Below are positions 22,813-34,789 of a stretch of 64,000 bases of DNA, piece by piece. The notes beneath the pieces are model-generated. The model searched no databases and was not told the DNA's origin. It was given only the letters and a program-made list of their open reading frames with translations. Each line of letters starts with the position of its first letter. Position 1 is the first letter of the stretch. A program made the translations under genes and the position numbers. The DNA is from Nibricoccus aquaticus (GTDB lineage: Bacteria > Verrucomicrobiota > Verrucomicrobiia > Opitutales > Opitutaceae), in the NCBI RefSeq assembly GCF_002310495.1, contig NZ_CP023344.1, forward strand, positions 3,055,501 to 3,119,500, given 5' to 3'.

Positions 22813-23901
22813 TCAGGGCTTTACGTTCCGGTTGAGCCAGGAGGGGTATTTTTTGAGGATCTCGGCGGGGCGGTCATCGTACCAAGCGTAGCCGCCGCGG
22901 CGTTCGCGTTCGATTTCGGAGAGGGTGTAGTGGATGACTTCGTCGCGGCCGATGAAGATGGGACGCTCGGTGCCGAGTTCGTAGAAGCGGGCCCAGAGGG
23001 GCGGGGCGGCGGGGTCGGGGGTGACGATGCCGTCGCGACCTTCGGGGGTTTTGACGCGTTCGAAGCGGAGGCCGGAGAGTTTGGTGCGCTCGAACCAGGC
23101 GACGGCACCCTGGACGGAGGCGATGATTTCGGGTGAGGGGTTTTCGAGCGACATGAGAAAGCGGACGAGGCCGGCGCTTTCCTGGGAGGTGAAGCAGGCG
23201 GGTTCGAATTTGCGAGCGGGCGCTGGCGCGAAGGTGGTTTCGTCGTGCTGGGCGGCCCAGACAGTGGGTTTGCCGTCGACGACGATCTGGCAGCGGAGGA
23301 CGCAGGCGATGCCACGCGCGAGTGCATCGGTGGCTCGGATACGGCGGGGTTCGTCGACAAAGGCGTAGGGGGCTTTGGCTGCGGCGGTGTCGCGGAGAAT
23401 TTCGAGGACGTTGCGGGTGGCGTCGTCGTTGAAGGTGATGTGGGTGTAGTAACCTTTGCGAAGAGGGAAGAACTGGGGCCAGCCGCCGTTTTCGTATTGG
23501 GCGGTGAAGAGGTAATCGAGGCCGCGGAGTACGGCGTCACGATGGCGTTCGTGGCCGGTGGCGGTGAATACGGCGGCGAGGAAACGGATCTGGGAGGTGG
23601 TGGCGCCGTTGTCGATGGTGGGCGTATGTTCGCCGTCGCGTTTTGTTTCGTCACGGGAGGCGAGGGCGGCTCGGTCGGCATCGGTGAGGTTTTTTTCCAT
23701 CGCGATGTTTTTGGGCCAGCCGCCGGACTTGTATTGGTAAGCGAGGAGGTTGTCGGCGATGGCGAGGGCCTCAGGGGAGGTGAGGACGGCGGGATCTTTG
23801 GGGAGGGATTTCCAATCGATGGGCTGCTGGGCGACGGCGAGGCAGCTCATGCAGGCGAGCGAGGTAACGAGGAGCAGGGTGAGGCGGCGGAGAGAGTGCA
23901 T
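22813..23901 (-). CDS. pelA: Pectate lyase, PL10 family
   Basis: Exported lyase (362 aa) cleaving polygalacturonate by beta-elimination. Signal peptide MHSLRRLTLLLVTSLACMSC with a lipobox-like TSLACMSC may make it a lipoprotein or simply exported. PL10 hallmarks are YKSGGWPKN, TIDNGATTSQIRFLA, QYENGGWPQFFP and HITFNDDATRNVL (catalytic region). The C-terminus contains YELGTERPIF and RGGYAWY. It is the last gene of the pectin locus in transcription order. Confidence 0.92.
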   Translation of the reverse strand: MHSLRRLTLLLVTSLACMSCLAVAQQPIDWKSLPKDPAVLTSPEALAIADNLLAYQYKSGGWPKNIAMEKNLTDADRAALASRDETKRDGEHTPTIDNGATTSQIRFLAAVFTATGHERHRDAVLRGLDYLFTAQYENGGWPQFFPLRKGYYTHITFNDDATRNVLEILRDTAAAKAPYAFVDEPRRIRATDALARGIACVLRCQIVVDGKPTVWAAQHDETTFAPAPARKFEPACFTSQESAGLVRFLMSLENPSPEIIASVQGAVAWFERTKLSGLRFERVKTPEGRDGIVTPDPAAPPLWARFYELGTERPIFIGRDEVIHYTLSEIERERRGGYAWYDDRPAEILKKYPSWLNRNVKP

Positions 23902-24033: not shown

Positions 24034-25392
24034 TCAGGCTTTGGCGACGGGGTCGTCGGCGATGGTGATGGTCTCCAATTTGGGAGAGAGGGTGTGGAGG
24101 ATGACCAGCGCCAGCAGGTAGGCGGAGGCAGCGATGGTGAAGAGGGGGACGTAGCCGCCGGTGTTGATGATCGCGCCGACGTTGCCGGCGAGGAGCGCGC
24201 CACCGAGGCCGCCCATGAGGCCGCCGATGCCGACGACGCTGCCGACGGCGCGACGGGGGAACTGGTCGGAGACGGTGGTGAACAGGTTGGCACTCCAGCC
24301 TTGGTGCGCGGCGGTGGCGAGCGAGATGAGCGCGATGGCGACGACGATGCTGCTGGTCATCGAAGCGAAGACGATCGGAACGACGCAGAGCGCGCAGATG
24401 AGCATGGTGACTTTGCGGGCTTTGTTGACGCTCCAGCCGAGGCCTATGAAGCGCGTCGCGAGCCAGCCGAAGAAGATGCTGCCGCCGTCAGACACGAGGT
24501 AGATGATGAGGAAGGGAAGGCCGACTTGTTTGAGGTCGAGCTTGGTGTCGAAGGCGGCGTTCTCGTTGAAGAAGGTGGGCAGCCAGGTGAGATAGAACCA
24601 CCAGATGGCGTCGGTCATGAACTTCGGGATGGCGAAGGCCCAGGTGGCGCGGTAGCGGCCGATCTGGCTCCATTTCATCGGCTTCTCGCTGGTGGCACCG
24701 CCATCCTGACGGATGTAGGCGAGTTCGGCGGCGGAGAGTTTGGGGTGTTCCTCGGGCTTGCGGTAGACGGCGAGCCACCAGAAGAGGACGAAGGTGCCGA
24801 TGGCGCCGGTGATGATGAAGCTGGCGCGCCAGCCCCAGTGGGAAATGATCCAGGGGACGCAGACGGCGGTGAGGATGATGCCGACATTGGCGCCGGCGTT
24901 GAAGAGGCCGGTGGCGAAACTTCGCTCCTTTTTTGGAAACCACTCGGAGACGGTTTTAATGGCGGCCGGGAAGTTACCGGCTTCACCGAGCCCGAGTCCG
25001 ATGCGGACCGCGCCCATGCCTACCATGCCGTGGACGAGACCGTGGCCGACCGCGGCAACGCTCCAGCCGGCGATGCTGATCGTGTAGCCGCGACGGATGC
25101 CGAGACGGTCGATCATGTAGCCTGCGAGCAGGAAGCCGAAGGCGTAGGCGTATTTGAAGAGCGCATCCAGGTGGCTCATCTTTTCCTTGAAGACGGCCAG
25201 ATCGGCATCGGTCAGCGGCACGCTTTCCGGGATGCCGAGCATCTGGTGGCGGAAGGCCGTATCGAGCATCGTGAACGAAAAAACGTTACGATCGATATAG
25301 TTGATGGTCGTGGCCAGGAAGAGCACGGCGCAGATACGCCAGCGGTAACGGCCAATGACGGAACCCGCCGGGGCGGGTTGGGTGGTTTGCAT
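24034..25392 (-). CDS. Major facilitator carrier, hexuronate (ExuT-like) type
   Basis: A 452-aa inner-membrane symporter with 12 predicted helices, resembling the anion:cation symporter group that includes ExuT. Visible marks are NYIDRNVFSF, GYMIDRLGIRRGYTISIAGWS (key residues D, R, G, R), GLGEAGNFPAAIKTVSEWFP and ATGLFNAGANVG. In this locus it probably takes up galacturonate or unsaturated derivatives, but that is context-based. A palindrome lies 79-98 bases upstream of the start. Confidence 0.85.
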   Translation of the reverse strand: MQTTQPAPAGSVIGRYRWRICAVLFLATTINYIDRNVFSFTMLDTAFRHQMLGIPESVPLTDADLAVFKEKMSHLDALFKYAYAFGFLLAGYMIDRLGIRRGYTISIAGWSVAAVGHGLVHGMVGMGAVRIGLGLGEAGNFPAAIKTVSEWFPKKERSFATGLFNAGANVGIILTAVCVPWIISHWGWRASFIITGAIGTFVLFWWLAVYRKPEEHPKLSAAELAYIRQDGGATSEKPMKWSQIGRYRATWAFAIPKFMTDAIWWFYLTWLPTFFNENAAFDTKLDLKQVGLPFLIIYLVSDGGSIFFGWLATRFIGLGWSVNKARKVTMLICALCVVPIVFASMTSSIVVAIALISLATAAHQGWSANLFTTVSDQFPRRAVGSVVGIGGLMGGLGGALLAGNVGAIINTGGYVPLFTIAASAYLLALVILHTLSPKLETITIADDPVAKA

Positions 25393-25548: not shown

Positions 25549-26874
25549 TTACATAAGCCCCAGCATCCGGGGCAGTGTGAGCGAGATCCAAGGCACGTAG
25601 GTTATGATCAGCAGGGCGATGGCCATCGCGATGAAGAAGGGGATCGCCGAGGGCACGACGCGAGCGAGGGTCGTTTTGCCGACGCTGCAGCCGACGAATA
25701 AACAGGTGCCGACGGGCGGCGTGCAGAGGCCGATGCAGAGGTTGGCGATCATCACGATGCCGAAGTGGACAGGGTCCATGCCGAGGCCGATGACGACGGG
25801 CAGGAAGATCGGGGTGAAGATGAGGACGGCGGGCGTCATGTCCATGAAGGTGCCGACAATGAGGAGCAGTACGTTGATCAGCAGGAGCACCATGAACGGG
25901 TTGGCCGAGAGCGTGAGCATCGCGTCGCTGACCATCTGGGGAACGCGTTCGTAGGCGAGAACCCAGCTCATGGCCTGGCTGGCACCGACGAGGAGCATGA
26001 CGACGGAGGTCGTCAGTGCGCTGCGCAGGAGGATTGCGGGGAGGTGTTTTGCCTTCACCTCTTTGTAGAAGAACATCGCGAGGACCAGGCAGTAGGCGAC
26101 GGCGATGGCGGAGGCTTCGGTCGGCGAGAAGATGCCGCCGAGGATACCGCCGAGGACGATCACCACGAGCAGGAGGGTGGGCAGCGCGCTGAGGAAACCT
26201 TGGATCATGCCTGGTGGTGGAGGCGTGAGAGAATAGGCGGTGGGAGCGTCAGGAACTTTGGCGGGCGCTGGTTTGAGGAAGCGCACGGTCACAAAGCTCG
26301 CGATCATGATGGAAAGGCCGACGAGGAAACCGGGGACGACACCGGCGAGGAAGAGCGCGGCGACGGAGACGTTTCCGGAGACGACGGCAAACACGATCAT
26401 GATGTTGCTCGGCGGAATGAGCAGGCCGGTGGTGGCGGAGCAGGCGGTGAGGGCGACGGCGAATTCGCGTTTGTAGCCCTTCTCTTCCATCTGCGGGATC
26501 ATGAAGCCGCCGATGGATGACACGGCGGCGGCGGCCGAGCCGGAGACGGCGCCGAAGAGCATGCAAGTGACGGTATTCACATAGGCGAGACCGCCGGGGA
26601 AACGGCCGACCAGCGAGGTGGCGAAATCCATGAGGCGTTTCGCCATGCCGCCGTCGCCCATGAGGACGCCGGAGAGCACGAAGAACGGGATTGCGAGGAG
26701 CGGAAAACTGGCGATGCCCGTCGAGAGGCGCTGGGCTACGACGTAGCCGGTGGGGACGTCGCCGAGGGTCGCGATGGTGGCGACGCTGGCGAGGCCGATG
26801 CAGATGGCGATGGGGACGTTTAGGAACATGAGTCCCACGAACATCACGAGGAGAATGGTGGTTTCAGCGGACAT
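25549..26874 (-). CDS. dctM: TRAP transporter large permease DctM
   Basis: A 441-aa inner-membrane subunit that moves the substrate with Na+. It has about 12 helices and typical DctM motifs: MFVGLMFLNVPIAICIG, FFVLSGVLMG, FGAVSGSAAAAVSSIG and LIPPSNIMI. It lies four bases after the small permease gene (stop to start, minus strand), so the two are cotranscribed. Substrate inferred from context (see DctP). Confidence 0.95.
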   Translation of the reverse strand: MSAETTILLVMFVGLMFLNVPIAICIGLASVATIATLGDVPTGYVVAQRLSTGIASFPLLAIPFFVLSGVLMGDGGMAKRLMDFATSLVGRFPGGLAYVNTVTCMLFGAVSGSAAAAVSSIGGFMIPQMEEKGYKREFAVALTACSATTGLLIPPSNIMIVFAVVSGNVSVAALFLAGVVPGFLVGLSIMIASFVTVRFLKPAPAKVPDAPTAYSLTPPPPGMIQGFLSALPTLLLVVIVLGGILGGIFSPTEASAIAVAYCLVLAMFFYKEVKAKHLPAILLRSALTTSVVMLLVGASQAMSWVLAYERVPQMVSDAMLTLSANPFMVLLLINVLLLIVGTFMDMTPAVLIFTPIFLPVVIGLGMDPVHFGIVMIANLCIGLCTPPVGTCLFVGCSVGKTTLARVVPSAIPFFIAMAIALLIITYVPWISLTLPRMLGLM

Positions 26875-26877
26875 GGA

Positions 26878-27387
26878 TCAGCCTTCCTTGGGGGAACTGG
26901 TTGCGGCGATGGGGTTGGGTTTGATCAGGTGCTCGATCGCGAAGGCGCAGATGAAGAAGCCGCTGATCGGGACGGCGGAGTAGAGGTATCCGATGCGCCA
27001 CTGCAGCACCGGGGTGAGCTGGTTGGTGGCGAGTGTTTCCGCCACCAGGCGGCTGCCGCCGTAGAAGAGCGCGAAGCCCGCGAAGATGAGCGCGGCGATC
27101 TCGACGACGACCGCGACGACGCGCTGGGCGGAGGGATCGAGTTTGCCGACGAAGTAATCCACGCCGAGGTGGCCGTAGCCGCGGTAGGTGAGGGCGCCGC
27201 CCAGGAGCGAAACCCAGACGAGAAGATAGACGGCAAGTTCCTCGGTCCAATCGCTGGGGCGGATGCCGGGGACGTAGCGGGAGACGACGCCCCAGATGAC
27301 GTCGAGGACGAGGATGGCGAAGAGAGCGATGGTGAACCACTCAAGCGCGCGCACCACTTTCTGCCAGAGGGCGGAGAAGGCGTTCAT
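26878..27387 (-). CDS. dctQ: TRAP transporter small permease DctQ
   Basis: A 169-aa four-helix inner-membrane subunit. The start ATG 27387 (MNAFSALWQKVVRALEWF) matches DctQ length; the open frame upstream is unlike the family. Marks are ILVLDVIWGVVSRYV, SDWTEELAVYLLVWVSLLG and the glycine in GHLGVDYFV. It lies between dctP and dctM in the usual order. Confidence 0.93.
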   Translation of the reverse strand: MNAFSALWQKVVRALEWFTIALFAILVLDVIWGVVSRYVPGIRPSDWTEELAVYLLVWVSLLGGALTYRGYGHLGVDYFVGKLDPSAQRVVAVVVEIAALIFAGFALFYGGSRLVAETLATNQLTPVLQWRIGYLYSAVPISGFFICAFAIEHLIKPNPIAATSSPKEG

Positions 27388-27398
27388 GGGGCGGCGGG

Positions 27399-28421
27399 TT
27401 ATTTGACTTCGCGGATGCGGCGCACGAGCTCGGCCATGCGGCCCTCGAGGCCGTTGTACATGGAGGCGGTGGCGTTGATGAAGGGCTGTTTCTCGGGGCG
27501 GTAGATGGTTACGCCGGCTTTCTCGACGGTGACGAGCGCCTCTTCGGTTTTTTCCTTCCAGAGTTTGCGCTGGAAAACGACGGATTCGTCGGCGGCCTGC
27601 TGCACCCATTTGCGGGATTGCTCGGGGAGATTTTCCCAGATCTTGGTGCTGAAGATGATGACGTCGGGGATGCGGGTGTGCTCGTTAAGCGTGAAGTATT
27701 TTGCGACCTCGTAGTGACGGCTGGTGAGAAAGCTGGGCGGGTTGTTTTCGGCGCCGTTGACCATACTTTGCTGGAGGGCGGTGTAGAGCTCGCCCCAAGG
27801 AATCGGGGTGGGGCCGCCGCCGAGCGTGATGATGAGATCGCGGGCGGTCTTGCTGCTCATAACGCGGAGCTTGAGTTCTTTGACGTCGGCGGGGGTTTGG
27901 ATGGGTTTGCCGACGGTGTAGAAACTGCGGCTGCCGGAGTCGTAGTAGCACAGGCCGTGGACGCCGATGGGATCGCCGGCGGCGAGAAGCTCCTGGCCGA
28001 GGGGGCCGTTGAGGACGTTCCAGTAGTGGTCTTCGTCGCGGAAAAGGTAGGGAAGTCCGAATACAGCCATGTCGGGGACGAAGCCTTCCATGGCGCCTGC
28101 GGAGGTTTTGACCATGGCAAGCGCGCCGCGCTGGCATTGCTCGATGCACTCGGGTTCTGAGCCGAGCTGGCCGTTGGGGAATACCTGGATTTTCACGGCG
28201 CCCGAGGAGAGTTCATCCACGCGCTTGGCCATGAACTCCATGGCGGCGTGAACAGGATGCGCTTGGTCGAGGGAGTGACCCAGTTTGAGGATGGTGTTGC
28301 GGCCGCCCTCGGCGCTGGCCGAGGCGCGTTCGGCGCGGAGGAATCCGATGAAAGCGGACGCGGAGAGCAGCGCGCCGACGATCAGGCCGACAAAGAGAAA
28401 GGAGAAAGCTTTTCTATCCAT
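27399..28421 (-). CDS. dctP: TRAP transporter solute-binding protein DctP
   Basis: A 340-aa periplasmic receptor anchored by an uncleaved or cleaved N-terminal helix (FSFLFVGLIVGALLSASAF). DctP core: LGHSLDQAHPVHAAMEF, FPNGQLGSEPECIEQ, the Arg in LKLRVMSSKTARD that contacts ligand carboxylates, and WGELYTALQQSMVNGAENNPPSF. DctP proteins in galacturonide loci bind uronates or their oligomers; this is the likely ligand from neighbours. It precedes dctQ by 11 bases. Confidence 0.93.
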   Translation of the reverse strand: MDRKAFSFLFVGLIVGALLSASAFIGFLRAERASASAEGGRNTILKLGHSLDQAHPVHAAMEFMAKRVDELSSGAVKIQVFPNGQLGSEPECIEQCQRGALAMVKTSAGAMEGFVPDMAVFGLPYLFRDEDHYWNVLNGPLGQELLAAGDPIGVHGLCYYDSGSRSFYTVGKPIQTPADVKELKLRVMSSKTARDLIITLGGGPTPIPWGELYTALQQSMVNGAENNPPSFLTSRHYEVAKYFTLNEHTRIPDVIIFSTKIWENLPEQSRKWVQQAADESVVFQRKLWKEKTEEALVTVEKAGVTIYRPEKQPFINATASMYNGLEGRMAELVRRIREVK

Positions 28422-28492
28422 GGAGAGTTAGGGGGAGGGGGAAAGTCGGCGCAGTGTGGGCGGGTGGAGAGGAATGCGGCGAGCGGTAAGTG

Positions 28493-31246
28493 TTACTTCG
28501 GGGGGGCGGGAGGAGCGGCGGGCGGCGGCACGGAGTTGGCGGCGCGGGCGGTTTTGGCGGGGATGATGTTCACGTTGTCCAGGGTGATCTTGCCGGTGTG
28601 CTGGAGCACCTCGGTCATGGTGATGCCGGAGAAGGTGGAGTTGGCGATGCGGATGTCGTCGATCTCGGCGCCGGGGAAGCTGCGGACGAACATGACGCGC
28701 GGGCTGCCGGTGCTGGTGATGTTGTTCATACTGACGTTGCGCACGACGGCCTTGTGCGCGCCTTTCGCACCTTCTTCGTAGAGGAGGTCGATGGTGAGGA
28801 CGGACTCGGCGACCTGGCCGATCTGGACGTTGCGCATGTGGACGTTTTCCAGGATGCCGCCGCGGACGGCGTTGTTCTTGAAGCGGAGGGCGCGGTCGAG
28901 ATTGGGGCTGTCCATAGTGAGGTTCTCGGCGAAGACGTTGCGGATGCCGCCGGAGCATTCGGAGCCGAGCACAACGCCGCCGTGGCCGTCTTTGAACTCG
29001 GAGTCACGGATGATGATGTTTTCCGTGGGAATGCCGAGGCGGCGGCCGTCGTTGTTGCGGCCGGACTTGATGGCGATGCAGTCGTCGCCGGTGTCGAACT
29101 TGGTGTTTTCGATGAGGATGTCGCGGCAGGATTCGGGGTCGCAGCCGTCGGAGTTGGCGCCGTGGGAGATGATGGTGACGCCGCGGACGGTGATGTTTTG
29201 CGAGAGGACGGGATGGATGACCCAGAACGGCGAGCGGAGCAGGGTGACGTCTTCGATGAGGATGTTTTTGCAGCGGTAGAACTGGATGAGCGGGGGGCGG
29301 AGGTATTCGCCTGGGCCGTACACGCGGTCATTGGGGAGGCTGTTGTCGTTGGCCTGGGCCATGAGGCGGTTGCGGCTGGCGCGGGCGAGAGGGACTTCGG
29401 GCTTGGTGTTGGCGTCGAGCTTCACCCAGCCCCACCAGTTGGAGTAGTCGGCCTGGCCGTCGATGGTGCCCTTGCCGGTGATGGCGACGTTTTCCTGCTC
29501 GAAGGCGTAGATGAGCGGGGAGAAGTTCATGCACTCGACGCCTTCCCAGCGCGTGAAGACGGTGGGGTAGAGTTTGGGGTCGGTGAGGAAGAGGAGCTTG
29601 GCGCCTTCGTCGAGGTGGAGGTTGACGTTACTCTTCAGGTGGACGGCGCCGGTGTAGAATGTGCCTGCGGGAATCAGCACCACGCCGCCGCCAGCGGCGT
29701 TGCAGGCCTCGATGGCCTTGCGGATGGCCTCGGTGGAGTCGCCTTTGCCGTCGGTGGGCGCGCCGTGGGCGACGATGGAAAATTCACGCTTCGGGAAGGT
29801 CGGGGCTTTGATGCGGGCGAGGATCGCGGGCATTTCTTCGGTCCAGGCTTTGCGGGCGGCATCGTCGGCGAAGGTGTGGGCGAGGGAAGCGGTGGGGTTG
29901 GATGCAGAAGCGGGAGAGCCGGGTTGGGCGGAGGACGAGGAAGTTGTGGGTGTTTTCGTGGAGGCGAAGATTTTTACCGAGACGGGCGTGGGCGCGGGGA
30001 TGGCCGAGGCGGGGGCGTTGATGGTGAGGAGGCGGTCGAGTTCGATGCCTGCGAAGACGAAGGGGCCGGTGCCTTTGGCGTCGTTGTCCACGATGGGTTC
30101 GCTGATGTAGTATTCGAAGGAGCCGTCGCGGCCGTAGCCGAGGCCGGCGACTTTGCAGCAGCGGGTGAGTTTGGTGCGGCCTTCGGAGTCGGTGCGGATG
30201 AATTCGCGGATGATGCCGTCGTAGCCTTTGATGACAGCGGGGAGATAAGCGTCGCGCGGAAGGATGCCTTGGTTGATGGCTTTCGCGATGGAGTAAACGA
30301 ACATCGAGGAAGCGGTGGCTTCGAGGTAGTTGCCCTTGCGGCTGCCCTGATCGGTGACCTGCCACCACACGCCGGTAGCGGGGTCCTGGTATTTGATCAC
30401 GCCGTCGGCGAGTTTCTTGAAAATGGCGGCGATCTCGGGGCGGGCTTTGTGGTCGGCGGGGAAGTAATCGTAGGCATCGACGAGGGCCATGGCGTACCAA
30501 CCGATGGCGCGGCTCCAGAAATTGGGGGAGAGGCCGGTGGTTTTATTGGCCCAAGACTGTTCGCGGGATTCGTCCCACGCGTGATAGAAGAGGCCGGTCT
30601 TTTCGTCGTAGGTTTGTTTGGCGACGAGGCGGATTTGCTGGGCAACGTCGTCGAAAATGGCGGGCTCGTTGAAGGTGCGTCCATACTCGGCGTAAAAGGG
30701 CGAACCCATGAAAAGACCGTCGAGCCACATCTGGTGCGGGTAACGGTTCTTATGCCAGAAGCCGCCTTCCTTGGTGCGCGGATGGGTTTTCAGGTGCTCG
30801 CGGATAACGTCGAGTGTGCCGCGGTAGCGGGCGTCTTTGGTGCGATGGTAGAGAGCGAAGACGGCTTTGGCGGGGGCGACGTGGTCGATGTTATATTCGG
30901 CCAGTTTGTAGTGCTGAATGGTGCGGCCGTCGGCAGAGAGGAAGGAGTCGATGGTGCCTTTGACCCACGGTAGGTAGCGATCTTGGCCGAGGTGTGTGTC
31001 GAGGCTGAGGAGAGAGTTGAGGAAGAGAAAGTTGGCGTAATCCCACTTGGCGGCGGGGTAGGCCATCTTGGTGCCGAGGCGGGCGATCTCGGAGTTTCCG
31101 AGGCGGGCGGACCAGACGAGTGGAGAGGTATCGCCGAACGTGGCGGGCGGCTGAGCTGCGGCAATTGGAGCGGCTTGTGCGCAGAACAGGGCGCCAAGTG
31201 TGAAGAAAGCAGTGCGGAGCGTGCGGGTGAAGTGGGCGGCAGGCAT
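28493..31246 (-). CDS. GH105-GH28 fusion: unsaturated uronyl hydrolase plus polygalacturonase
   Basis: A 917-aa exported two-domain enzyme with signal peptide (FFTLGALFCAQAAPIAAAQ). Residues about 50-435 match GH105 (unsaturated rhamnogalacturonyl/galacturonyl hydrolase), with GGFWHKNRYPHQMWLDGLFMG (key residues H, Y, P, D, G), FYHAWDES and GWYAMALVDAYDYFP. A Thr/Ser/Pro/Ala linker covers about 440-500. Residues about 510-900 match GH28: right-handed beta-helix with GGGVVLIPAGTF, GKGTIDGQ, NSDGCDPE, DTGDDCIAIKSG, GHGGVVLGSE and RALRFKNN. The substrate is a pectic polymer; each domain may act on a different link. Start ATG 31246. Confidence 0.92.
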   Translation of the reverse strand: MPAAHFTRTLRTAFFTLGALFCAQAAPIAAAQPPATFGDTSPLVWSARLGNSEIARLGTKMAYPAAKWDYANFLFLNSLLSLDTHLGQDRYLPWVKGTIDSFLSADGRTIQHYKLAEYNIDHVAPAKAVFALYHRTKDARYRGTLDVIREHLKTHPRTKEGGFWHKNRYPHQMWLDGLFMGSPFYAEYGRTFNEPAIFDDVAQQIRLVAKQTYDEKTGLFYHAWDESREQSWANKTTGLSPNFWSRAIGWYAMALVDAYDYFPADHKARPEIAAIFKKLADGVIKYQDPATGVWWQVTDQGSRKGNYLEATASSMFVYSIAKAINQGILPRDAYLPAVIKGYDGIIREFIRTDSEGRTKLTRCCKVAGLGYGRDGSFEYYISEPIVDNDAKGTGPFVFAGIELDRLLTINAPASAIPAPTPVSVKIFASTKTPTTSSSSAQPGSPASASNPTASLAHTFADDAARKAWTEEMPAILARIKAPTFPKREFSIVAHGAPTDGKGDSTEAIRKAIEACNAAGGGVVLIPAGTFYTGAVHLKSNVNLHLDEGAKLLFLTDPKLYPTVFTRWEGVECMNFSPLIYAFEQENVAITGKGTIDGQADYSNWWGWVKLDANTKPEVPLARASRNRLMAQANDNSLPNDRVYGPGEYLRPPLIQFYRCKNILIEDVTLLRSPFWVIHPVLSQNITVRGVTIISHGANSDGCDPESCRDILIENTKFDTGDDCIAIKSGRNNDGRRLGIPTENIIIRDSEFKDGHGGVVLGSECSGGIRNVFAENLTMDSPNLDRALRFKNNAVRGGILENVHMRNVQIGQVAESVLTIDLLYEEGAKGAHKAVVRNVSMNNITSTGSPRVMFVRSFPGAEIDDIRIANSTFSGITMTEVLQHTGKITLDNVNIIPAKTARAANSVPPPAAPPAPPK

Positions 31247-31309: not shown

Positions 31310-31366
31310 TAATGGAGGATGCGAAGGGGAGACGTTTTGGATGCGGGTGAGTTGCGTCAAATTATA

Positions 31367-31382
31367 TCGGACAAGTGTCCGA
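31367..31382. promoter_or_regulatory. 16-bp perfect palindrome, candidate operator
   Basis: TCGGACAAGTGTCCGA (31367-31382) has half-sites TCGGACA / TGTCCGA around an AG centre. It lies 52 bases upstream of the TTGACA box at 31434. Confidence 0.55.
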
Positions 31383-31433
31383 ACGCGCTCGAACCGTCTG
31401 ATCACAACGAGGAGTCCACGCATTTTCCCGTAT

Positions 31434-31463
31434 TTGACAGTCTGAGCCGCGGCTCCCTATCTG
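31434..31463 (+). promoter_or_regulatory. Putative sigma-70-type promoter of LacI regulator
   Basis: TTGACA (31434-31439) and TATCTG (31458-31463) are separated by 18 bases. It would start transcription shortly before the GTG 31484, supporting that start over ATG 31319. Confidence 0.5.
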
Positions 31464-31483
31464 TCGCAGCCGTCCAAAAAATT

Positions 31484-32542
31484 GTGAGTAGCCCCCAGCC
31501 GAAAACACCCCAGCCCCGCATACGCTCCTCGACTGACTTTGCCCGTTACGTGGGCCTGGCCCGAACGACTGTTTCGCGTGTGCTCAACGGCCAGCCGGGG
31601 CTGAAGAAAAAAACCATCGAGCGGGTGAATCGCGCGATCGAAGAAACCGGGTTTGTGCCCAACGCCTACGCGCTGCATCTCAAGGGCAAACGCACCTCGA
31701 CCATCGGCGTGTGTATGCAGAACCTGATGACGCAGACGCTGGTGCATAAACTGGCGTCGCTTCAGCAGCGGTTGCGCGACAAGGATTTCACGACGTTCAT
31801 TGAGGTGGTAGATCCGAGCAGCAGCTGGGATGTGATCCGCCACTTTCTTTCCCTGCGCGTCGATGCAGTGGTGTTTATCGGCTACTTTGACGAGGCGCAG
31901 ATGGCGCAGCATCTCAAGAGTCTCGCGACAAGTGGAACGCCGAGCACGGTCATCGACCATTTCGGTATCAAAGGTGCCAACACGGTCTCGTTGGATCGCG
32001 TGCTGGGCATGGCGGGAATCGTCGAGCATCTCTATGCGCTCGGGCACCGAACTTTCGGGCTGCTGGCTTACTCAGATACGGTGCGAAGCACGCTCGATCG
32101 TGCGCGAGGCATTCGTGAGTCGCTCGCGGTGCATGGGCTGGATTTCGATAAATGTACGGTGTCGCTTGATCACCTGCATGTGCGTGGAAACGACTTTGAG
32201 TACGGCCGGGCGCTCGCGAAAAGCTTTGTCGAAAGGGGCAGCCTTCCGACGGCGTTTATTGCGCTTAATGACGAAATCGCCGTCGGCGCGATGCATGGCT
32301 TGAAGGAACTTGGCGTGCGTGTGCCCCATGATGTTTCGGTGACCGGCTTCAATAATCAGGACATCTGCCTGATGACCGCACCCAGTCTCACGAGCGTCGA
32401 TCAACGGATCGACGTCACCGTTGAGGCGGCGGTGGAGATGTTGCTTTCCCAGATCGACAAAACGCCGCGTGTAAAACCGCTCGTCCGAATGATCGACCCG
32501 CAGTTGATCATTCGTGCTTCGACCGGCCCGGCGCGACGCTGA
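31484..32542 (+). CDS. LacI-family transcriptional regulator
   Basis: A 352-aa repressor-type regulator. GTG 31484 is chosen because an operator-like palindrome and promoter lie inside the longer frame that begins at 31319. The N-terminal helix-turn-helix reads TDFARYVGLARTTVSRVLNG with hinge FVPNAYALHLKG; it is followed by a periplasmic-binding-protein-like sensor domain (about 60-345) with TIGVCMQNLM, ALGHRTFGLLAY, FIALNDEIAVGAMHGLKELG (key residues N, D, G) and DVSVTGFNNQD. It is divergent from the pectin operon, so it most likely responds to a galacturonate-derived signal and controls that locus. Confidence 0.9.
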   Translation: MSSPQPKTPQPRIRSSTDFARYVGLARTTVSRVLNGQPGLKKKTIERVNRAIEETGFVPNAYALHLKGKRTSTIGVCMQNLMTQTLVHKLASLQQRLRDKDFTTFIEVVDPSSSWDVIRHFLSLRVDAVVFIGYFDEAQMAQHLKSLATSGTPSTVIDHFGIKGANTVSLDRVLGMAGIVEHLYALGHRTFGLLAYSDTVRSTLDRARGIRESLAVHGLDFDKCTVSLDHLHVRGNDFEYGRALAKSFVERGSLPTAFIALNDEIAVGAMHGLKELGVRVPHDVSVTGFNNQDICLMTAPSLTSVDQRIDVTVEAAVEMLLSQIDKTPRVKPLVRMIDPQLIIRASTGPARR

Positions 32543-32665
32543 CCTTGTTGGGTGTTATTTTTTCAGCAGTGCGGGCAGTCCCGCTGTGATTGAGTTCGTC
32601 CGCACTTTCCATCTCCGCGCTTGCGCTGGCGGAGTGCTTTCGCCGGGATTCTGGCCCAAATCTTT

Positions 32666-33994
32666 ATGAAACAACGCACTCTCGCGCGAGAAGTCTCGAT
32701 CCAAGGTAACGCGCTCCACACCGGTGAAGCTGTCACACTGACGATCAAGCCCGCGCCGGTAGACCACGGCATTGTTTTCAAGCGCGTGGATCTTAGCGGA
32801 GCGCCGGAGCTGCGTCCGCGCGTGGATCAAGTCACTGATCTCGTCCGCGCGACGACCATCCAGGTCGGCCACGCGAAGATCCACACCGTTGAGCATGTGC
32901 TGAGTGCGTTGCACGGCTGCGGTGTTGATAACGTCATCATCGAGATGAATGCCTCGGAGCCTCCGATCCTCGACGGCTCTGCGAAGCCGTTTGTTGATCT
33001 GCTTATGCAGGGCGAGCCCCTTGAGCAGGATAAAGATCGCGAGTACTTCGTTCTGGAGGAAGCGGTCTCCGTGCAAAAGGGGAATTCCTCGATTATCGCG
33101 CTTCCGCACGACGGGCTCAAAATCACCTGCACTTCCGCTGACGACCGCGGCATACACACGCAGCATCTCACGCTCACGATCGATCCTGACGTGTTCATGA
33201 CACAGGTGGCTGCGGCGCGCACATTCACGATCTACGAAGACATCGAGGAGTTGCTCAAACTCGGGAAAATCAAAGGCGGCTCGCTCGACTGCGCTGTCGT
33301 CATTCGCGGCGACAAGATCCTCTCCAAGGAAGGCCTGCGCTTCAAAGATGAGTTCGTGCGGCACAAAATTTTGGATATTATTGGCGACATCGTACTGCTC
33401 GGGATGCCGCTCAAGGCGCACATCATCGCAACCCGTCCCGGCCATGCGATCAATGCCGAGCTCACCAAGGCGCTCGCGGCCAAACTCGAGGAGAAGAAAA
33501 AAGGTCCGAAAAAAAAGCCGCGCCCCGCGATGGTGATGCCGAGCGAGACCTCGCTCGATATCCGCCGCATCCTCGACACGCTTCCGCATCGTTATCCGTT
33601 TTTGATGATTGATCGTGTCATGGAGTTCATTGGCGACGACGCTCTCGTCGCGATCAAAAACGTCAGCATTAACGAGCCGTATTTTCAGGGGCATTTTCCG
33701 AATAATCCTGTGATGCCGGGTGTGCTTCAGCTCGAAGCTATGGCACAGGCAGCAGGTATTTTAATGCTCCGTCGCGGATCCAGCGAGGGTAAGACTTCGC
33801 TCTTCATGAGCGCGGACAAAGTGAAATTCCGCAAACCAGTCCGACCGGGCGATCAACTCATCGTCAACGCCAAGCTTACCAAAACCCGCGGTGCGAAACT
33901 CGCCACGGCCGAGGTTACATGTACCGTGGAGGGCACGGTGGTTTCCTCTGGCGAACTGATGTTCGCCATCCTCGACACAAGCGAACTCGACTAA
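32666..33994 (+). CDS. lpxC-fabZ: Bifunctional LpxC deacetylase / FabZ dehydratase
   Basis: Fused enzyme (442 aa) for lipid A and fatty acid synthesis in the cytoplasm. Residues about 1-280: LpxC, UDP-3-O-acyl-N-acetylglucosamine deacetylase, with zinc-site motif [11 protein letters not shown], the second-site [12 protein letters not shown] and the acyl-pocket [11 protein letters not shown] Lys-rich linker (about 272-292) joins FabZ (about 295-440) with [10 protein letters not shown] and catalytic-site [19 protein letters not shown] (key residues H, P, M, P, G, E). Such fusions are known in Bacteroidota and other groups. ATG 32666 fits the LpxC start; it is 6 bases upstream of lpxA. Confidence 0.97.
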
Positions 33995-34000
33995 CGTTTC

Positions 34001-34789
34001 ATGGCCTCGAAAATTCACGCAACCGCGGTCATCGAGCCGGGCGCGCAACTTGGCTCGGATGTGGAGATTGGCCCTTTCGCCTACATCGCCGGATCTGTTC
34101 GCATCGGCGACGGTACGCGCATCCATCATCACGCGAGTGTCGAGGGAAACACTGTGCTTGGGAAAACCTGCGAGGTGTTTCCCCACGCCAATCTCGGAGC
34201 GAAAACCCAGGATTTGAAGTACAAGGGCGGCAATCCCGGCGTGCGCATCGGTGATCGGAATGTGTTTCGTGAATACGTCACCGTCCATGCGGCCACCAAC
34301 GACGGCGATCTCACGGTGATCGGTGATGATAACACCATCCTCGCTTACACGCACGTCGCGCACGACTGCGTGATTGGCAACCACACGGTGATGAGCAACG
34401 GCACGATGCTGGCGGGTCACGTCCATGTGGAGGATCATGTGGTTATGGGCGGCTATTCTGGCGTGCATCAATTCTGCCGCATTGGCGCGCATGCGATGGT
34501 CAGTGCGTGTGCGAAAGTTGTGCAGGACATCCCGCCGTTCTTCATCGCAGACGGCACGCCCGCTGTGATCCGCTCGATGAATAAAGTCGGACTTGAGCGC
34601 CGCGGTTACAGCGCTGAGCAAATTGACCGGGTAAAACAGATCTACCGCATTCTCTTTCGCGACGGATTGAATCGCACGCAGGCGCTGGAAAAACTTCAGC
34701 AGCATCAGCACGTCGCCAGCGCGGAGTTTCAGCTCTTGCTGGCCTTTGCGGCAAAGAGTGAGCGTGGTCTCGCCCCGGGCTCGGTGTGA
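34001..34789 (+). CDS. lpxA: UDP-N-acetylglucosamine acyltransferase
   Basis: First enzyme of lipid A synthesis (262 aa), a trimeric left-handed beta-helix. Hexapeptide repeats run from about 5 to 190 (AVIEPGAQLGSDVEIGPF is the first); the catalytic-loop THVAHDCVIGN carries His near 125, and GGYSGVHQFCRIG is typical. A C-terminal helical domain follows (YSAEQIDRVKQIYR). It overlaps in function with the upstream lpxC-fabZ and is separated from it by 6 bases, so the two form an operon. Confidence 0.97.
   Translation: MASKIHATAVIEPGAQLGSDVEIGPFAYIAGSVRIGDGTRIHHHASVEGNTVLGKTCEVFPHANLGAKTQDLKYKGGNPGVRIGDRNVFREYVTVHAATNDGDLTVIGDDNTILAYTHVAHDCVIGNHTVMSNGTMLAGHVHVEDHVVMGGYSGVHQFCRIGAHAMVSACAKVVQDIPPFFIADGTPAVIRSMNKVGLERRGYSAEQIDRVKQIYRILFRDGLNRTQALEKLQQHQHVASAEFQLLLAFAAKSERGLAPGSV

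Follow-up and report, generated by a model that had tools for sequence, protein, structure and literature searches.

The window analyzed here, a stretch of 64,000 nucleotides from the chromosome of Nibricoccus aquaticus, encodes a protein of 917 amino acids in which two pectin-related enzyme domains are joined, which raises the questions of what this protein does and whether the joining is unusual or of any use. Our best explanation, to which we assign a probability of roughly 70%, is that it is an exported bifunctional homogalacturonan enzyme, probably of the periplasm, in which a GH105 domain uncaps oligosaccharides and an exo-acting GH28 domain then releases galacturonate, with subsequent import of the monomers. 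The gene is encoded on the minus strand, which the first-pass annotation of this DNA had not given. The features of the locus are listed in Table 1. For comparison, we searched 200 genomes of the same family and found at least 52 distinct fused open reading frames (ORFs) with GH105 first, the window's included; these are the 52 rows referred to below. The L070 ORF among them is truncated where its contig stops, so that only the last part of its GH105 domain remains.

Table 1. Features of the fusion gene and its neighborhood (window positions)
Feature	Position	Strand	Basis
GH105-GH28 fusion gene	28493..31246	-	917-aa ORF; domain, structure-relative and fold matches
Signal-peptide-like N-terminus, about residues 1-33	31148..31246	-	Sequence and hydropathy; no lipobox by eye
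GH105-type domain, residues 62-406	30029..31063	-	PF07470, solved relatives, YteR active-site positions
A/S/P/T-rich low-complexity linker, residues 409-458	29873..30022	-	Composition; predicted disordered
GH28 domain, about residues 470-896	28559..29839	-	PF00295, 3jur relative, conserved residues
TRAP substrate-binding protein DctP	27399..28421	-	Solved relatives include hexuronate binders
TRAP small permease DctQ	26878..27609	-	Longest ORF, overlaps DctP frame, start unrefined
TRAP large permease DctM	25549..26874	-	Profile match
MFS transporter	24034..25392	-	Best NCBIfam match is a D-galactonate transporter subfamily, under its cut-off
PL10 pectate lyase	22813..23901	-	PF09492; TIGR02474 above cut-off
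LacI-type regulator, divergent	31319..32542	+	Profile match

The Pfam search placed a GH105-type domain at the N terminus and a GH28 domain at the C terminus, with the low-complexity linker between them, and both profiles scored above their cut-offs, in agreement with the families proposed in the first-pass annotation. The N-terminal half matched PF07470, named GH88 in Pfam, over residues 62 to 406 with an E value of 2.5e-106 (356.1 bits; cut-off, 26.6). Its nearest solved relatives by sequence are CA_C0359 of Clostridium acetobutylicum (4wu0; 342.0 bits), published as a GH105 enzyme (PMC4528949), and YteR of Bacillus subtilis (1nc5/2gh4; 273.9 bits); both are chains of about 360 to 373 residues without GH28. 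The predicted fold of this half, an (alpha/alpha)6 barrel of the GH88/GH105 type, resembles 4wu0 and 2gh4 about equally (TMt, 0.95 each). In the alignment, the YteR pocket corresponds to Y70, D121, H165, K166, W174, D176, M180, H222, W244, R246, and W250 of the fusion protein, and D176 aligns with the catalytic Asp143 of YteR. The list of pocket residues is taken mostly from PMC4528949, with Arg213 added through its CA_C0359 equivalent, Arg200. All eleven positions are identical in 51 of the 52 rows, that is, in every row that covers them. The N-terminal half is predicted to hydrate 4,5-unsaturated uronyl ends.

The C-terminal half matched PF00295 over residues 650 to 848 (E value, 1.8e-27; 96.8 bits; cut-off, 22.9), and a match to PF12708 (rhamnogalacturonase A/epimerase, pectate lyase-like) at residues 491 to 543 is the start of the same right-handed beta-helix. 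The best match in both sequence (380.7 bits) and fold (3jur_A; TMt, 0.90) was the exo-polygalacturonase of Thermotoga maritima, a chain of 446 to 448 residues that lacks a GH105 domain; it was followed in sequence by 5olp (289.9 bits), YeGH28 2uve (97.3 bits), and the polygalacturonase 1bhe (75.4 bits). Exo- rather than endo-acting enzymes are therefore closest to this half in sequence and fold, and the first-pass term "backbone hydrolase," which is sound as to family, should be reworded to an exo-acting hydrolase, as judged by closest homology. Eight residues are described as conserved in GH28 (N, D, D, D, H, G, R, and K; PMC10059216). Seven of them (N698, D700, D721, D722, H755, R788, and K790) are identical in 52 of 52 rows; the eighth, G761, is present in the window protein and lies outside that tally. 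Since the published active-site residues of both families are present and kept in relatives, both halves look active. A BT4155-type alpha-D-galacturonidase identity was rejected for the GH28 half: this was its best NCBIfam match (NF049892), with 331.6 bits against a curated cut-off of 800.

A structure predicted from the window protein and 14 rows of other loci (mean pLDDT, 83.5; pTM, 0.56) has a helical domain and a strand-rich domain, between which the linker (residues 409 to 458) stays under a pLDDT of 50, and a Foldseek search with it returned the same solved relatives as the sequence search. The low-complexity linker described in the first-pass annotation, rich in A, S, P, and T, is thus confirmed, and neither its pLDDT nor the pTM supports a rigid placement of the active sites relative to each other. 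The N terminus resembles a signal peptide, so the protein looks exported, as had been claimed. Its best 12-residue hydropathy window (1.84) is less hydrophobic than that of most relatives; among the 52 rows, lower values were found only in L126 (1.62) and L057 (-0.93), the L070 row being cut off there. The first-pass placement outside the cell fared less well than export itself: because a TRAP binding protein is encoded next door, the periplasm is probably at least as likely a location. The accompanying statement that GH105 enzymes often act inside the cell agrees with Paenibacillus amylolyticus, in which two of three tested cytoplasmic GH105 enzymes strip homogalacturonan oligosaccharides of their unsaturated ends (PMC7267202), but not with the periplasmic GH105 of Bacteroides thetaiotaomicron described in a review (PMC8002723).

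The fusion gene is the first of a same-strand run; downstream of it lie the three genes of a TRAP transporter, followed by those for an MFS transporter and a PL10 lyase (PF09492, the Pfam family corresponding to PL10), and a LacI-type gene is divergent. A number of observations bear on the function of this neighborhood. (i) Of the family's fused loci, 45 extend 1.5 kb or more downstream; 39 of these contain a matching MFS or TRAP gene (MFS, 35; TRAP, 6; both, 2), and in the other 6 no transporter like the window's was found. In the 35 fused loci whose downstream DNA reaches 5.5 kb or more, a matching transporter is present in 30 and PL10 in 23, leaving 12 in which PL10 was not found within the stretch examined. 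These tallies were obtained by BLAST with the window's own neighbors, so that unlike transporters would escape. (ii) Nine PL10 ORFs of relatives were picked for length. Two of them carry a pectinesterase domain (L097 and L118), esterase domains of the GDSL or BD-FAE type occur in six (L097, L117, L121, L127, L128, and L104), and PL10 stands alone in L099 and L119. The extra domains of these neighbors are a pointer to homogalacturonan. The esterase-bearing ORFs downstream of the fusion are L097:3431-6076, L117:613-3273, L118:5560-7740, L121:2436-5267, L127:3772-6459, L128:4481-6973, and L104:8226-10286. (iii) The genome encodes KduI (NF002091; 379.3 bits; cut-off, 250), which NCBIfam resolved from a Pfam family, PF04962, that also covers IolB; an adjoining KduD-like gene falls just under its cut-off (330.1 versus 338.85), and UxaC is present (NF002794; 538 versus 387). 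The UxaC match, at G000:C1:1702168-1703555 (L132 and L133), consists of two pieces in different open frames, covering profile positions 3 to 38 and 37 to 464, and the longer ORF is still above the NCBIfam cut-off. (iv) DctP, a putative hexuronate binder, resembles the TRAP proteins Bpro_3107 (4mhf; 198.7 bits), which binds glucuronate and galacturonate, and Apre_1383 (4n91; 182.3 bits), which binds glucuronate (PMC7660916); its best two matches, 4n8y and 4x8r, had no ligand in the output. By eye, R165, R186, and N226/N227 of DctP lie within the motifs expected to hold the two arginines and one asparagine described in that article. The resemblance to hexuronate binders lends support to the first-pass suggestion that pectin is degraded to monomers before uptake.

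We propose the following sequence of events. The PL10 enzyme of the same, presumably co-transcribed, gene run, together with other lyases, would cut polygalacturonate into oligosaccharides with a 4,5-unsaturated uronate at the nonreducing end. The GH105 domain would take off this cap, which presumably blocks the GH28 domain, and the latter would then release galacturonate from the freed nonreducing end. Galacturonate and the rearranged unsaturated sugar may be imported by the neighboring TRAP and MFS transporters and enter the UxaC and KduI/KduD routes; the fusion would help by holding both steps on one chain. The closest known system is the homogalacturonan locus of B. thetaiotaomicron, as described in a review (PMC8002723). 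There, oligosaccharides are imported to the periplasm, where a lyase, then GH105, and then an exo-GH28 finish their breakdown; GH105 BT4108 acts before exo-GH28 BT4123, which takes the products to galacturonate. The same two activities are thus consecutive after pectate lyases in that system, but they reside in two proteins of a SusC/SusD locus, whereas here they form one chain beside TRAP and MFS genes.

The joining itself, in contrast to the first-pass view that the pairing and domain order are the unusual point, is fairly ordinary in this family. The fused ORFs occur in at least 50 of the 200 genomes and in at least 21 of 49 sampled genera, genome and genus tallies being lower bounds counted by hand, and rarity of the architecture can be rejected. 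At 1e-105, 86 of the 200 family genomes had a match and 114 had none; in a draw of 288 genomes from the phylum, 26 had a match at 1e-85 and 262 did not. One further GH105-GH28 fusion was found outside this family but within its class (L134). The opposite order, GH28 first, also places both domains in one ORF, namely in L031:601-3093, from a Sedimentisphaerales metagenome-assembled genome, where PL10 follows, and in L135:2357-4837, from a genome of the window's own phylum (G265). L031 is outside the residue and neighborhood counts, and L134 and L135 are outside all counts. Among the open-licence papers listed by our searches, no title or abstract opening names a GH105-GH28 fusion. As to history, a quickly built GH28 tree with 102 rows requires a minimum of 4 changes between fused and unfused, against a shuffled mean of 34.3, and the starred branches force 3. 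A single fusion event and then a few GH105 losses would fit, gain and loss being indistinguishable on a quick tree without an inferred root. The tree carries long-branch warnings, 3jur among them.

That the domains are joined need not mean that joining pays. Adjacent pathway genes may have been fused by chance and have drifted since, with the domains working independently, and we give this possibility somewhat less than even odds. It concerns only the benefit of the fusion and is compatible with the homogalacturonan explanation. GH105 and GH28 lie as adjacent separate genes in L028, L043, L045, L046, L047, L062, L066, and L067, and those in L062, L066, and L067 in particular argue for it; the fusion is moreover dispensable, because 15 of the 67 GH28 rows of the clade holding the fusions are unfused, and the disordered linker and modest pTM of the window protein indicate no fixed arrangement. 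The breadth of the fusion across genomes and genera argues against it, as do the occurrence of the opposite order elsewhere and the length of the linkers. Beyond the domain ends, these measure -2 to 54 residues and are shorter than 20 in 46 of the 52 rows; the six rows with linkers of at least 30 residues, the window's included, fall together in a single starred group when placed on the GH28 tree. A stronger claim, that a one-chain relay was selected in this family and reinvented in the opposite order, with the attached exo-GH28 starting at once and attachment speeding conversion, is tentative and in our view rather doubtful.

The same architecture might instead act on rhamnogalacturonan I (RG-I), where GH105 would free an unsaturated residue from rhamnose and GH28 would release galacturonate from the RG-I backbone. 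Since the GH105 fold fits YteR and 4wu0 about equally, and YteR is a rhamnogalacturonyl hydrolase acting on rhamnogalacturonan products (PMC4528949), homogalacturonan is no more than a probable substrate of the GH105 half. Among NCBIfam models, the GH28 half scores best with BT4155, which a review describes as an RG-I enzyme (PMC8002723), but that match is far under its cut-off. In the GH28 tree, 5olp (titled Galacturonidase) groups with another GH28 of the same genome (L003), outside the fusion clade, whereas a starred branch sets 3jur and the window protein apart from it, although the tree's own check shows its long branch meeting another long branch, so that its place is not firm. The downstream lyase is a PL10, and the pectinesterase domain in two of the nine long PL10 ORFs of relatives fits homogalacturonan. 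RG-I is thus less supported than homogalacturonan, and we regard it as unlikely.

A frameshift or misassembly at the linker, the point of doubt in the first-pass annotation, can be dismissed almost outright: we found nothing in its favor, the ORF has no internal stop and no N, and a chance join or artefact is excluded because at least 51 further distinct ORFs, in at least 49 other genomes, carry the same GH105-first fusion. The third-position GC content is high on either side of the linker (0.79 and 0.90).

Taken together, the protein combines two familiar pectin enzymes, and it is fairly ordinary in that the join is common among relatives and the steps are already known as consecutive. Should the homogalacturonan explanation be true, (i) the protein would be a bifunctional pectinase, ready for use, by which lyase products are converted to monomers, (ii) the fused, adjacent, opposite-order, and GH105-less versions would offer a natural set for testing the value of joining consecutive enzymes, and (iii) a hexuronate-type TRAP transporter and an MFS transporter could be annotated in this family as tied to homogalacturonan use.

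Several minor observations were made. ORFs 32555-33694 and 33761-34711, both on the minus strand, have no Pfam or NCBIfam match; they overlap ORFs of the opposite strand and so may not be genes. An ORF of 827 amino acids with a GTG start (28490-30973, plus strand) lies antisense to the fusion gene and probably represents a shadow ORF arising from the GC-rich coding sequence. In L062:7373-9940 and L068:8920-11580, DUF4861 (PF16153) is fused to the N-terminal side of GH105, with a separate GH28 gene nearby. The N. aquaticus genome itself contains an ORF of 809 amino acids (L005:1294-3720, within G000:C1:1187867-1192045) that combines a BT_3657-like N-terminal domain and a GH43 match with GH28.
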